Source: Limisphaerales bacterium (GTDB taxonomy: Bacteria; Verrucomicrobiota; Verrucomicrobiia; Limisphaerales; UBA1100). Taken from it: 64,000 nt of DNA. The notes under the pieces are model-generated. The model searched no databases and was not told the origin of the DNA. It saw only the letters and a list, made by a program, of their open reading frames with translations. Both the position numbers and the translations under genes were made by a program. The stretch lies in the NCBI GenBank assembly GCA_014382585.1, contig JACNJL010000057.1:62001-126000 (forward strand). Reading direction: 5' to 3'. This document shows positions 58,673-64,000 of the stretch, in pieces (position 1 is the stretch's first letter; every line of letters begins with the position of its first letter).

Positions 58673-61477
58673 ATGAAAATTCGGAATCTCTTTTTCACAA
58701 TGGCCGCAGTCGCGGTGTGTTTGCCTGCGATGGCAACGGAAGCCAAAGAAAAACTCCCCACGGCCGAGCAGCGCTTTGGCGGCAAGATTGAAGACGCGGA
58801 GAATCCCAGCTTCCGTCGGCACGTGGTGCCGCTCGCCAGCAAGCTCGGCTGCAGTGGGCGCGAGTGCCACGGATCGTTTCAGGGACGCGGTGGATTTCAG
58901 CTTTCGCTCTTTGGTTATGATTTCAAAAAGGATCACACCGCCATTACCAACGACACGAAGGATGATATCCGTGTGGATATGGAAAACCCGGCGAAAAGTT
59001 TGTTCATCCAAAAACCGCTGAAACAAATCAAGCACAAGGGCGGCGAGATTTATGAGGAAGGCAGTTGGGAACATAACCTAATGCTGAAATGGATTCAGGA
59101 AGGCGCGAAGCTGGACGTCGCTGAAACAGGCGCGTTTGATCGGTTGGAAATTTTCCCGAAAGAAATCGTCGCCCGCAAGGCCGGTGAAAGCATCCAACTC
59201 AAAGTACTCGCGCATTGGGCCGACGGCACGGTGGAGGATGTGACCGAGTTCACGCGGTTCCGCACGAATGACGAGAGCGTGGCTGAGGCGCACGAGGGCG
59301 GGCGCGTGGAAATCAAAGGCAAAGGCGATTCGCACGTGGTGGCATTTTACGACAACGGCGTGGTGCCGGTGCCGGTGATGCTGCCGGTCAGCCATTTGGT
59401 GGGCAAAGATTATCCAAAAGTGATGACGCCCACGAAGGTGGACGCGTTGGTGGTGGACAAGCTGCGCAAGGTGGGCCTCGTCCCTTCGGAGACCTGCACG
59501 GACACCGAATTTTTACGGCGCGTCACGCTGGATGTGACCGGCACATTGCCGACTTCCGATGAAGTCAAAACATTCCTCGCCGATAAATCCGAAGACAAGC
59601 GCACGAAGAAAATCAATCAACTCCTCCAGCGCCCTGCGTACGCCGCGTGGTGGGCCACGAAGCTCAGCGATTTCACCGGCAACAGCCCGCAACAAATCCG
59701 CGTTAATAACCTTCCGCGTGACGCCAACCTCAGCGGGATGTGGTACGATTGGCTTGAGCATCGTGTGGCGGAAAATGTCTCGTACGATAAGATCGTCGAA
59801 GGCATCGTGATGGGTTCCACCCGCACCTCACCCGACCAAACCTTCGAAGAAATGTGCGAAGAAATGGGTAGTTATTTCCGCGACAAAAATCCGAAAGACT
59901 TTGAGGATCGCAAAAATATGCCCTTCTTCTGGGCGCGCCGAAACCTCCGCCAACCCGAAGCCAAAGCCATGGCCTTCGCGTACAGTTTCCTCGGCGTGCG
60001 CATTCAGTGCGCCAACTGCCACAAACATCCGTTTGACCAATGGACCCAGCAGGATTTCAAATCCTTCCAAGCCTTCTTCACCCCGATCATTTCCGGCACC
60101 AATAACCGGAGCGAGGGAAAAGGCAATATGGATTACCGCACGCTCACTGCCGAGTTGCGGAAGGAAGCGGATTACGATCGCAACGATCCCAAGCAAAATC
60201 TGAACCGTCTCCTGCGGCCCATTATTGAAAAGCGCATCAAAGCCGGCAAACCCATCCCGTGGCAGGAGGTTTACATTCGCCAACAGGTGCAAAACAAATA
60301 CACCGAGCGGCAACTTGAAAAAATCCGGAAGCGCAACCCGGACTTTAATGCGCGCGTCATCACCCCGCGCGTGCTCGGCGGTGAGGATGTTTTGGGAGCC
60401 AAATACAAAGACCCGCGCGCGCCATTGATGGAATGGCTGCGTGCACCGGAAAACCCCTATTTCGCACGCGCCTTTGTGAATCGCGTATGGGCGCATTACT
60501 TCGGCCGCGGCATCGTGGAGCCGGCTGATGACTTAAATCTCGCTAACCCGCCCAGCAACAAGGCGTTGATGGATCACCTCGCCAAAGGATTTGTGGCGAG
60601 CGGTTATGACATGAAATGGGTGCACCGCGAAATTATGAACAGCGACACCTACCAACGCTCGTGGCGCGTGAATGATACCAACAAGTTGGATGAGAAAAAC
60701 TTTAGCCGCTACGTCCTCCGCCGGTTGCCCGCCGAGGTAGTGGCCGATTCCATTATGCAAGCCACCGCCTCCGACGACCGCGTGGAGGAATTCGTCACCA
60801 ATATGGACACCCGAATGATTGGCAGCGCCAGCACCACAAACTATCGCGGCCGCAATGGCGCGGCGTATATGTTGCAGCTGTTCGGCAAACCGTTGCGCGA
60901 AAATAATTGCGACTGTGAACGCACCAGCAGCCCCACGCTCTTGCAAACCATCTTTACGCGGAACGATCCGGAAATGCTCGCACGCATCGAGGGAACCGCA
61001 CGCGGCAGCAGCAGCTGGATCAGCGAATTGCGCGTCGCCCACGGCGAAAGCCCAAGTGATCGCGCCAATGCCGCGAAGGCCCTGCAAATGCGCCGTACCT
61101 TGGAAGGAATGCGCACCCGTGCCAAACGCTTCGCCGCCAACAAGCCGCGCAAGCCCGAAGGCGACGACCCCGCCCTCCTCAAACAGTTTCAGGCGCGGCT
61201 TAAAACATATCAGAAATCGATGGCAAAAATGCAGGGCACGATTGCGGGTTACGAAAAAAGCATTGCCAAGCTCGTGCCGCCAAAAGCAAAGCTTTCGGTC
61301 AAAGAAATCGATGCGATGATCACCGAGGTCTTCCTGCGCACGGTGAGTCGGTATCCTTCGCCGGATGAAATGAAAAGCGCCAAGGCCGATGTGGCCGCCG
61401 CAAAAGATGCCGTTACCGGTGTGCGCGATTTGCTTTGGGCGATGCTCAACACCAAAGAATTTATGGTGAATCACTAA
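58673..61477 (+). CDS. DUF1549/DUF1553 (PSD1-type) secreted protein
   Basis: A 934-residue exported protein. Residues 1-22 are a signal peptide. A GCSGRECHG motif at residues 60-67 is the family's CxxxxCH variant, and CANCHKHPFDQWTQ near residue 445 is a classic CxxCH. A beta-sandwich like Big_2 is at about 160-245, DUF1549 at about 250-460 and DUF1553 at about 600-850. These large PVC proteins are often beside DUF1501 genes; none is present here. They are thought to act in extracellular polysaccharide breakdown or electron transfer. Confidence 0.88.
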   Translation: MKIRNLFFTMAAVAVCLPAMATEAKEKLPTAEQRFGGKIEDAENPSFRRHVVPLASKLGCSGRECHGSFQGRGGFQLSLFGYDFKKDHTAITNDTKDDIRVDMENPAKSLFIQKPLKQIKHKGGEIYEEGSWEHNLMLKWIQEGAKLDVAETGAFDRLEIFPKEIVARKAGESIQLKVLAHWADGTVEDVTEFTRFRTNDESVAEAHEGGRVEIKGKGDSHVVAFYDNGVVPVPVMLPVSHLVGKDYPKVMTPTKVDALVVDKLRKVGLVPSETCTDTEFLRRVTLDVTGTLPTSDEVKTFLADKSEDKRTKKINQLLQRPAYAAWWATKLSDFTGNSPQQIRVNNLPRDANLSGMWYDWLEHRVAENVSYDKIVEGIVMGSTRTSPDQTFEEMCEEMGSYFRDKNPKDFEDRKNMPFFWARRNLRQPEAKAMAFAYSFLGVRIQCANCHKHPFDQWTQQDFKSFQAFFTPIISGTNNRSEGKGNMDYRTLTAELRKEADYDRNDPKQNLNRLLRPIIEKRIKAGKPIPWQEVYIRQQVQNKYTERQLEKIRKRNPDFNARVITPRVLGGEDVLGAKYKDPRAPLMEWLRAPENPYFARAFVNRVWAHYFGRGIVEPADDLNLANPPSNKALMDHLAKGFVASGYDMKWVHREIMNSDTYQRSWRVNDTNKLDEKNFSRYVLRRLPAEVVADSIMQATASDDRVEEFVTNMDTRMIGSASTTNYRGRNGAAYMLQLFGKPLRENNCDCERTSSPTLLQTIFTRNDPEMLARIEGTARGSSSWISELRVAHGESPSDRANAAKALQMRRTLEGMRTRAKRFAANKPRKPEGDDPALLKQFQARLKTYQKSMAKMQGTIAGYEKSIAKLVPPKAKLSVKEIDAMITEVFLRTVSRYPSPDEMKSAKADVAAAKDAVTGVRDLLWAMLNTKEFMVNH

Positions 61478-61515
61478 CTGAAACTTTTTAACAAAACTCA
61501 ATAAGGAAATCAAAA

Positions 61516-62391
61516 ATGGAAGAATATAGACATAACTTTGAGCGAAATGGTTTTTGCATCATACGTGGAGCTATCAATCAAGATATCATAAAAAACGCGA
61601 ATCTCGTTATTGATGAGTTTTTGGCTAAACATAAACATATGTTGCTAAAAGAAGGCTTGCTTGCAGATGGATTATTACAACGAGTTGTAAATTTTCATCA
61701 CTGCATAACACCTCTAAAAAATGTTTTTGTCGAGGCAATGGAGAGTTCGTCAGAGGTAACGGACAAATTCGGTAGAGCAACGCTATACACGTCACTATTT
61801 TTTGAGTTGGGCAGCCAACAACCATTACATAGAGATACACCCTATTTTTTCTCAGGAAGCCAAAGTGGATACATGGGGGTGTGGGCGGCTTTAGATGATG
61901 TCGATGATACTAATGGACCTCTGGTAGTCGTAAAGGGAAGTCACAAGTTAGGGGAGCCCAATTTGGAGAAGCTCAAAATGAAATATCACCCTAACGAGCC
62001 AGTTCCCCCATCATCATCGGAATTATTTAACGCATACAATGAAGAGCTTGTTTCATTTGCTAATAGTGCTGGCTTAGAGACTGTTGTTTGTGAGGTGAGT
62101 AAAGGCGATGTTATCGTTTGGGATCCTGCGACATTACATGGCGGGCTTCCTCACTTAAACAAAGAAAAGACTAGACGCAGTTTTGTAATGCACGTCACGC
62201 CGAAGAACATGCCGATCAAACACATGGATTATTTTTTCAATCCCAATAAGCCCATAGGGGAAACCAATAAGGACTACGAAAATTATTCAGGGCGTTTAAT
62301 TGAAGTTGGCGACAAAGTCGATTTTATGCACAAGAAAATCATGCCTGTGGAGTTACTTGGTCGGTTTGATAATAAAGGGGAGAAAAATTAA
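61516..62391 (+). CDS. Phytanoyl-CoA-dioxygenase-family (PhyH) enzyme 1
   Basis: A 291-residue putative Fe(II)/2-oxoglutarate oxygenase. The metal site looks intact: HxD in PLHRDTPYFF and the distal His in LHGGLPHLNKEKTRRSF, where Arg probably binds 2-oxoglutarate. A Shine-Dalgarno AAGGA precedes the ATG. The gene is notably AT-rich compared with its upstream neighbour. PhyH enzymes hydroxylate lipids, small molecules or natural products. The substrate is unknown. Its TAA overlaps the next ATG. Confidence 0.85.
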   Translation: MEEYRHNFERNGFCIIRGAINQDIIKNANLVIDEFLAKHKHMLLKEGLLADGLLQRVVNFHHCITPLKNVFVEAMESSSEVTDKFGRATLYTSLFFELGSQQPLHRDTPYFFSGSQSGYMGVWAALDDVDDTNGPLVVVKGSHKLGEPNLEKLKMKYHPNEPVPPSSSELFNAYNEELVSFANSAGLETVVCEVSKGDVIVWDPATLHGGLPHLNKEKTRRSFVMHVTPKNMPIKHMDYFFNPNKPIGETNKDYENYSGRLIEVGDKVDFMHKKIMPVELLGRFDNKGEKN

Positions 62392-63407
62392 TGACAAACA
62401 AACAAGTCAAGGAATTAGGAATCCCTCACATTGAAAGCCCATTTTTTCCCATATTATTTGATTCTGAACACCAATATTATCGTTACGCAGAAGACATGAA
62501 TAGAAATGGCTATACAATAATAAAGGCAAATCAACTGTTACCGACTTCCGATTTTGCCGATCGTTTGGTAAAGGAAATTCGCGAAAAATTTAAAATAGAT
62601 ATACCTAGAAGAATTCAAGATTTACGTGACTCTGTTTCGATTGTTGAAGAATTCATCCATCATCCAAAACTACTAGAGCTCTTAAAATATCTCTATGGGA
62701 GAAATCCATTTCCTTTCCAAACACTACATTTTACACATGGCAGTGAACAACATTTTCATAGCGATGCAACACATTTTAATTCAATGCCTGAACGTTACAT
62801 GTGTGGGGTATGGCTTGCACTAGAGGATATTGGAGAAAGCCAAGGCCCCTTAGAATTTTATCCCGGATCTCATAAATTCCCAATTATTGAAAATGAACAT
62901 CTTGGAATTGACCTGCTCGTTGAGGAAAAAGTTGACCAAGAAAGCTATGAAGGGGTTTGGCGTGAACTCGTGCAAACAGCCGGTATAGCTAGAGAAAAAT
63001 TTATAGCTAAAAAGGGGGACATAATTATTTGGGCCGCCAATTTACTTCATGGTGGTTGTAAGCATACGGACTATAACAAATCAAGGTTCAGCCAAGTAAC
63101 ACACTATTATTTTAATAATTGTACCTATTACTCCCCAATGGATTCAGATAAGCAACATTGCTTCATTAAGCAACGATTTGATAATATTGAAGGTCACCAA
63201 GGTAATGATTTACATGATTCTCGTAAAAATGTTGTTGATGAATTCAGGGCTAGCTATCAGTCTCTTATTGATCAACATCGAAAGTTACCAAATGATTTCG
63301 ACGCAGAAAAATATTTATCTCTTCATCGAGATGTAAGGGACGGGGGAATCAACCCCGTAACGCACTATATTTTGTACGGTCGATATGAAGGGAGATCGTA
63401 TAAATGA
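62391..63407 (+). CDS. PhyH-family enzyme 2 with C-terminal HYxxxGxxEGR motif
   Basis: A 338-residue oxygenase with an HxD site in HFHSDATHF and a distal LLHGGCKHTDYNKSRFSQ. After the catalytic domain, the last ~35 residues carry YLSLHRDVRDGG and HYILYGRYEGRSY, a motif seen in enzymes of polysaccharide and glycan assembly. The GGGGAG Shine-Dalgarno and the one-base overlap with the previous gene show a tight operon. The AT-rich composition continues here. The reaction is unknown. Confidence 0.8.
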   Translation: MTNKQVKELGIPHIESPFFPILFDSEHQYYRYAEDMNRNGYTIIKANQLLPTSDFADRLVKEIREKFKIDIPRRIQDLRDSVSIVEEFIHHPKLLELLKYLYGRNPFPFQTLHFTHGSEQHFHSDATHFNSMPERYMCGVWLALEDIGESQGPLEFYPGSHKFPIIENEHLGIDLLVEEKVDQESYEGVWRELVQTAGIAREKFIAKKGDIIIWAANLLHGGCKHTDYNKSRFSQVTHYYFNNCTYYSPMDSDKQHCFIKQRFDNIEGHQGNDLHDSRKNVVDEFRASYQSLIDQHRKLPNDFDAEKYLSLHRDVRDGGINPVTHYILYGRYEGRSYK

Positions 63408-64000
63408 ACGATGCACTGCAGAATATATGTGATCTTTCAAAGATACTAAAAAGTTCATACGGTGAGAGCCTTAGCGAAACTTCGGGTGGAGGTGATCCGG
63501 CTGTCGTTGCCAAAAATTGGAGAGATCTTGTTGCAAGACATCTTCAGATGCCAAAAAATAGTACAGTTCTAGATTATGGGTGTGGAATCGGCCGTTTGGC
63601 AATTGGTTTATTGGAAGATAGGAATGATTTAAAATACTTTGGCATCGATGTGGTTCCTGAATTTATTGAGTTCGCAAAAAAATACATTACCAAAATAAAT
63701 GAAAATTTCATTTTTTTTCTTGTCGATGATGCGAATGAATATTATGAAAAATATACAATAAAAGATAAGACAAAATCCGATTATACTCGTTTTGATTTTT
63801 TAGAATGCAAGCCTGATTTTATTTTCGCTCTTTCCCTCTTTAGTCATCTAAATATAGTAGAAGCGCAGAAAGTGTTAAAAAACATCTCTTCATGTATGCA
63901 CGATGACAGTGTGGTCTTTTTAACGACATTCATTATCGATATTGAAGCGAAAAATTCTATGAGATCGAGTGAAACTTTTCCATTCAATCCAAATTCAACT
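63404..64000 (+). CDS. SAM-dependent methyltransferase, 3'-truncated by window end
   Basis: A frame of at least 199 residues begins at an ATG overlapping the previous TGA by four bases. It contains the SAM-binding VLDYGCGIGRLA, then FGIDVVPEFIEF and a LSLFSHLN region, typical of class I methyltransferases. It is strongly AT-rich and continues past the window. With the two oxygenases it forms a coupled trio, probably for modification of a lipid, sugar or small molecule. Confidence 0.8.
   Translation, partial: MNDALQNICDLSKILKSSYGESLSETSGGGDPAVVAKNWRDLVARHLQMPKNSTVLDYGCGIGRLAIGLLEDRNDLKYFGIDVVPEFIEFAKKYITKINENFIFFLVDDANEYYEKYTIKDKTKSDYTRFDFLECKPDFIFALSLFSHLNIVEAQKVLKNISSCMHDDSVVFLTTFIIDIEAKNSMRSSETFPFNPNST

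Follow-up and report, generated by a model that had tools for sequence, protein, structure and literature searches.

The AT-rich genes at the end of the window belong to a 3,575 bp block of foreign composition that lies between two host genes, one encoding a DUF1553 protein and the other a DUF1501 protein. Its gene content is that of a known kind of locus in truncated form; its physical status is uncertain. We favour, with moderate confidence, the reading that a broken piece of a foreign glycan tailoring and export operon was recently inserted here by illegitimate recombination. The window is a 64,000-nucleotide stretch of contig JACNJL010000057.1 (C57:62001-126000) from a Limisphaerales draft genome of 3.70 Mb in 70 contigs, with an estimated completeness of 95% and contamination of 0.32%; the view was extended along the same contig to C57:122001-142000 (locus L002, in which position x corresponds to window position x + 60000).

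The original prediction placed an AT-rich coupled operon at 61478-64000 and took it to be the possible front of a larger cluster. The foreign DNA in fact starts at about 61510 and runs on the forward strand to C57:127084, 1,084 bases past the end of the window. The expectation of a larger cluster failed: the block ends about 1.1 kb beyond the window in a truncated wzt gene, and the sequence immediately downstream consists of this one further foreign gene (a Wzt-type ATPase) followed by host sequence, with the DUF1501 gene next. Unrelated genes downstream were one of the outcomes that the original prediction had itself named as refuting it. The block thus holds four consecutive open reading frames, PhyH1, PhyH2, a methyltransferase and the Wzt-type ATPase, all on the forward strand. 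The tight coupling noted originally is confirmed (PhyH1 and PhyH2 overlap by one base in TAATG, PhyH2 and the methyltransferase by four in ATGA) and is extended by a third overlap of four bases between the methyltransferase and the ATPase. With overlaps of 1-4 bases throughout, the four frames make up one natural operon fragment. Shine-Dalgarno sites are evident in the block genes, as predicted (AAGGA, AGGGGAG and GGGAG), but the first ribosome-binding site, AATAAGGAAA, lies within a 220 bp segment of host origin; it is the leader of the host DUF1501 gene and does not belong to the AT-rich DNA.

The contrast in composition with the GC-rich neighbours also holds. The G+C fraction is 0.40 for PhyH1, 0.37 for PhyH2, 0.34 for the methyltransferase and 0.41 for the ATPase in a genome of 57% G+C, and at third codon positions it falls to 0.39, 0.28, 0.28 and 0.37, respectively, compared with 0.58-0.72 in three GC-rich genes of the same contig. 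When 1 kb windows were taken from about 1.2 Mb sampled across the genome (mean 0.568, SD 0.038), the lowest of the 1,221 values fell within the block. No integrase or transposase was found in the block among the open reading frames or with Pfam, and no replication, mobilization or recombinase gene was seen there; the block ends share no long inverted repeat, and C57:122001-142000 contains no tRNA gene. The block does not classify as a transposon or a genomic island. The duplication that flanks it measures 220 bp and is not a short target duplication; it is no hallmark of transposition, and there is no mobile-element gene to account for an insertion.

The two PhyH-type oxygenases named in the original prediction are borne out as putative Fe(II)/2-oxoglutarate dioxygenases. 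PhyH1 (61516..62391; 291 residues) matches PF05721 with an E-value of 6.1e-21 and PhyH2 (62391..63407; 338 residues, including a C-terminal domain discussed below) with 1.2e-16, scoring 76 and 62 bits, respectively, against a curated cut-off of 22. The predicted iron ligands and 2-oxoglutarate-binding arginine are found in the HxD and distal HGG...R motifs (HRD and HGG...RRSF in PhyH1; HSD and HGG...RFSQ in PhyH2), and these motifs are conserved in both of the relatives that were aligned. Weak matches to solved structures of PhyH-superfamily hydroxylases were obtained for PhyH1 (human PhyH, PDB entry 2a1x, and MysH, 9c9n) and for PhyH2 (EctD, 3emr, and PHYHD1, 2opw), with E-values from 7e-5 to 7e-3 across the four, and all four are too distant for the substrate to be deduced. 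A weak match of PhyH1 to chlorinating enzymes was considered, and a role as a halogenase was rejected because the iron-binding aspartate of the HxD motif is present.

The third gene (63404 to C57:126321, running off the window) encodes a class I SAM-dependent methyltransferase of 305 residues, which was likewise predicted correctly (PF13489, Methyltransf_23, 2.5e-11, among other matches) and in which the glycine-rich SAM motif VLDYGCGIGRLA is present. The HYxxxGxxEGR motif that had been noted at the C-terminus of PhyH2 is indeed there, and a related HWxxxGxxEGR occurs in the methyltransferase. The two C-termini are related copies of one short domain (FDxxxYL...DV...H[YW]xxxGxxEGR; 17 of 47 residues identical), hereafter the EGR domain, for which Pfam gave no match at E <= 1. 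The motif is also carried by glycosyltransferases, other methyltransferases, a sulfotransferase, and GH99-like and rhamnan-synthesis proteins. Many proteins of glycan assembly, from different classes of enzyme, share the EGR domain, which in some large proteins of the phylum is present in several copies. PhyH1, PhyH2 and the methyltransferase are intact, with their iron-ligand or SAM motifs kept, although a substrate for them need not exist in this host. The methyltransferase and the ATPase also match the defence-system models mads_2 and mads_3; these matches most likely arise through generic domains, and a defence system was rejected.

The last gene (C57:126318-127084) encodes a fragment of an ABC ATPase whose nucleotide-binding domain is of the Wzt/TagH type. 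TagH and galactan Wzt models match it with E-values from 2e-66 to 7e-54, below their full-length cut-offs, and a phmmer comparison with Aquifex aeolicus Wzt gives 1e-67 across the nucleotide-binding domain. The similarity stops at about residue 254, whereas the two Wzt relatives that were aligned are about 455 residues long; when the scaffold gap that follows is filled from the left copy of the flanking repeat, the frame closes at residue 281, inside the repeat. The C-terminal carbohydrate-binding domain of the closest relatives is missing. In A. aeolicus this domain recognizes the methylated end of the chain, and changes to the cap-binding residues nearly abolish binding to LPS (PMC9445017). 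There is no gene for a Wzm permease in the block or beside the ATPase, and the three ABC2_membrane matches in the genome, two of which exceed the cut-off, all lie on other contigs; none was recognized as Wzm. Since the sugar-binding domain of Wzt has been lost and no Wzm was recognized, the export part is probably dead in this host. The block shares its ATPase family with the Wzm/Wzt O-antigen exporters (A. aeolicus WzmWzt, PDB entries 8dku, 8dl0 and others; PMC9445017), and a methyltransferase next to the ATPase would fit those systems that recognize a modified chain end before export. It differs from the A. aeolicus system in lacking both the carbohydrate-binding domain and an adjacent Wzm, and in having two PhyH genes upstream.

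Relatives of the block genes point away from the host lineage. Neither PhyH2 nor the ATPase has a relative in the same-genus genomes that were searched; at the level of the order PhyH2 gave a partial match at 38%, and the next best ATPase of the host is only 29% identical to that of the block. Among plasmid records, PhyH2 has relatives of 40-43% identity in Sphingobium and Novosphingobium and one partial match at 49%. The two such loci that were viewed, on S. xenophagum pSH3 and N. pentaromativorans pLA5, encode glycosyltransferases and DUF5672 proteins, and their PhyH2 relatives share the N-terminal GIPxIESPxF; the polysaccharide locus of pLA5 additionally contains Wzz and an ABC permease/ATPase pair. 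Unlike the block, these loci are complete, have a single PhyH gene without the EGR tail, and have other neighbours. The closest Wzt relatives found (60-66%) are on Citrobacter braakii pF217-3, Pseudomonas asturiensis pCC1524 and Escherichia coli pKTa005_1. In contrast to the block, these plasmids carry complete Wzm-Wzt pairs, the Wzt of the first two being about 455 residues long, and the stretches that were viewed contain no PhyH gene. Two of the three are typed as conjugative, which indicates that such loci can travel.

A search for the donor gave one distant match for PhyH2 across 84,980 species genomes and weak or partial matches in 293 relatives and 387 genomes of the phylum, while the block as DNA was matched in its Wzt part alone (66-70%, in plasmids and E. 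coli genomes). A phage origin was rejected, as viral contigs contained no relative of PhyH1 or PhyH2 and phage records none of PhyH2. A foreign origin of the block is supported by these comparisons, with a Wzt apparently of gammaproteobacterial type. The idea of a transferred tailoring module, for which a lipid, a glycan or a small molecule had been proposed as the target, consequently stands in part: the foreign origin holds, and the link is to glycans, through the sphingomonad loci, the other carriers of the EGR motif and the neighbouring Wzt.

The site that the block occupies is empty in related genomes. Upstream lies an intact host gene for a DUF1549/DUF1553 (PSCyt2 and PSD1) protein of 934 residues (58673..61477, forward strand; PF07583 and PF07587) and downstream lies the DUF1501 gene (C57:127365-128666), which is present in 54 of 58 related genomes. 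The gene order was compared in 19 relatives, one of which (L012) is cut by a contig end. In all 18 that could be evaluated the block is absent and DUF1553 directly adjoins DUF1501; the DUF1553 match extends to the C-terminal residue and stops no more than tens of bases short of DUF1501, which leaves no room for an insert. In the closest relative (L005) the two proteins are 97% (DUF1501) and 93% (DUF1553) identical to those of the host, and the site is empty.

Both ends of the block are bounded by copies of the 220 bp host segment, which comprises the last 188 bp of the DUF1553 gene and the leader. The left copy (61290..61509, forward strand) ends in the ribosome-binding site (61500..61509) and switches directly after it into TCAAAAATGGAAG, the start of PhyH1, so that PhyH1 sits behind the host DUF1501 ribosome-binding site. 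The same site precedes DUF1501 after the right copy, where the leader reads CTCAATAAGGAAACTAAAATGGCTAAA; the leader in the closest relative reads CTCAATAAGGAAAAACAAAATGGCTAA. The right copy (C57:127085-127359) consists of 55 identical bases, 165 N and another 55 identical bases, the 55 bp at either end matching the left copy exactly. In the left copy the two 55-mers are separated by 110 bp, and 110 + 55 = 165. Sixteen pairs of contig ends in the assembly overlap by exactly 55 bp, from which an assembler k of 55 follows. With this k, the size of the gap identifies the two 55-mers as graph vertices and the gap as the repeat edge expressed in k-mer units.

The block is an unresolved loop of a de Bruijn assembly, as three structural features of the sequence establish. 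The graph gives the order DUF1553, repeat, block, repeat, DUF1501 and leaves open the number of turns around the loop. Flanking sequence could be read for five gaps in the stretches examined, and it is repeated only at the block. A second scaffold gap on this contig (149 N, L002:7896-8044) lies within a gene for an alanine-rich coiled-coil protein, and the 55-mers on either side of it do not recur in the stretches examined. Both junctions of the block are written out as contig sequence at k = 55, and the behaviour of de Bruijn assemblers implies that reads across both existed. As a graph loop between 220 bp repeats, one of which contains a scaffold gap, the block is a candidate rather than an established part of the chromosome.

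Several explanations are compatible with such a loop. A well placed competitor, which we regard as a real possibility though short of probable, is an artefact, a chimera arising before or in the course of assembly, in which AT-rich DNA of another organism was joined to host DNA by chimeric molecules formed during amplification or library preparation by template switching that left and rejoined a single locus, and was then traversed by the assembler as a loop, the true chromosome running directly from DUF1553 to DUF1501. The coincidence of the loop and the scaffold gap with the block, at the sole gap of the five with repeated flanks, is in keeping with this explanation, as are the operon broken in mid-gene, the empty site in all evaluable relatives and the lack of recognized partner genes in the genome, and a chimera formed by template switching in vitro would leave the same marks as an insertion. 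Such an artefact would, however, need both junctions to be abundant enough to outlast error removal and both to fall on the same 220 bp host segment; the placement of the PhyH1 start codon behind the host ribosome-binding site and the estimates of 95% completeness and 0.32% contamination also speak against it. The graph topology would be identical if a circular molecule apart from the chromosome, or a tandem array, of about 3.8 kb had the 220 bp segment in common with the chromosome and the assembler had merged the two, and direct 220 bp repeats would permit excision by homologous recombination, but the block has no visible gene for replication, mobilization or a recombinase and we consider this origin improbable. 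That the block is a resident, functional tailoring module of unusual composition within the host PSCyt/DUF1501 operon is scarcely credible: the frames other than the ATPase are intact and the first gene could use a host ribosome-binding site, yet the relatives that can be evaluated all lack the block at this site, the same-genus genomes searched have neither PhyH2 nor the ATPase, and the ATPase is truncated, so that this reading is already contradicted.

An insertion in the chromosome, the reading that we favour, would explain with one event the two junctions, the 220 bp duplication, the survival of both neighbouring genes and the well placed start codon. It would have arisen from illegitimate recombination of a kind that resembles template switching: between DUF1553 and DUF1501 of the host, 3.6 kb would have been copied in a single event, with a return to the host 220 bp upstream of the point of departure, which would have duplicated 220 bp of host DNA. 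The second copy of the repeat would restore the DUF1501 leader, leaving both host neighbours intact, and the ribosome-binding site of the host DUF1501 gene would serve the translation of PhyH1. One event suffices for this, while independent random chimeras must hit the same 220 bp twice; the PhyH1 start is suitably spaced from the host ribosome-binding site, and the flanking genes are intact. Against an insertion, the right copy of the repeat is mostly scaffold gap, the loop is left open by the assembler, neither the size of the duplication nor any mobile-element gene points to transposition, and no donor was found whose sequence might show microhomology at the junctions. In the donor, the locus probably served to decorate and export a surface glycan of the O-antigen or capsule type: the two PhyH-type enzymes would hydroxylate, and the methyltransferase would methylate, sugar residues or the end of the chain, and a Wzm/Wzt ABC exporter would then recognize and export the modified chain. 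A more specific proposal, which we put forward tentatively and think rather unlikely, is that a template switch in vivo placed a foreign polycistronic fragment at a host ribosome-binding site and kept both neighbours intact through the 220 bp duplication, as a mobile-element-free intermediate of operon acquisition, and that in the donor the two oxygenases and the methyltransferase made a glycan cap not described before. One study (PMC11111574) describes gene activation after transfer through tandem duplication; it is not drawn on as evidence here.

If the block is real, it records how surface-glycan genes were recently captured with no mobile element involved, and host genes can survive such an insertion unharmed. 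If it is an artefact, small foreign loops can enter well scored draft genomes and pass for horizontally acquired operons. In either case, the comparison of repeat ends with the assembly k-mer, confirmed by the overlaps of contig ends, is a simple and reusable check.

Further along the same contig (L002:13983-20000 and L003; C57:135983-142080) are genes for Cas9 (1,093 residues), Cas1 and probably Cas2, and after them a CRISPR array, which has at least 23 repeats and spacers of 29-30 bp and runs to the contig end. No spacer of this array matches the block. Three spacers match another contig of the same genome (C19; L073, 19,661 bp), over 29 of 30 bases, 28 of 29 bases and an 18-base stretch. 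Judging by its genes for a portal protein, a terminase large subunit and an integrase, C19 is probably a phage or prophage that this array targets. A separate AT-rich stretch (about 41% G+C) on contig C35 (L089:1001-6000), which encodes an integrase-like protein (phrog_1, 1e-11) and an 839-residue protein without a PHROG match, is possibly a mobile element.
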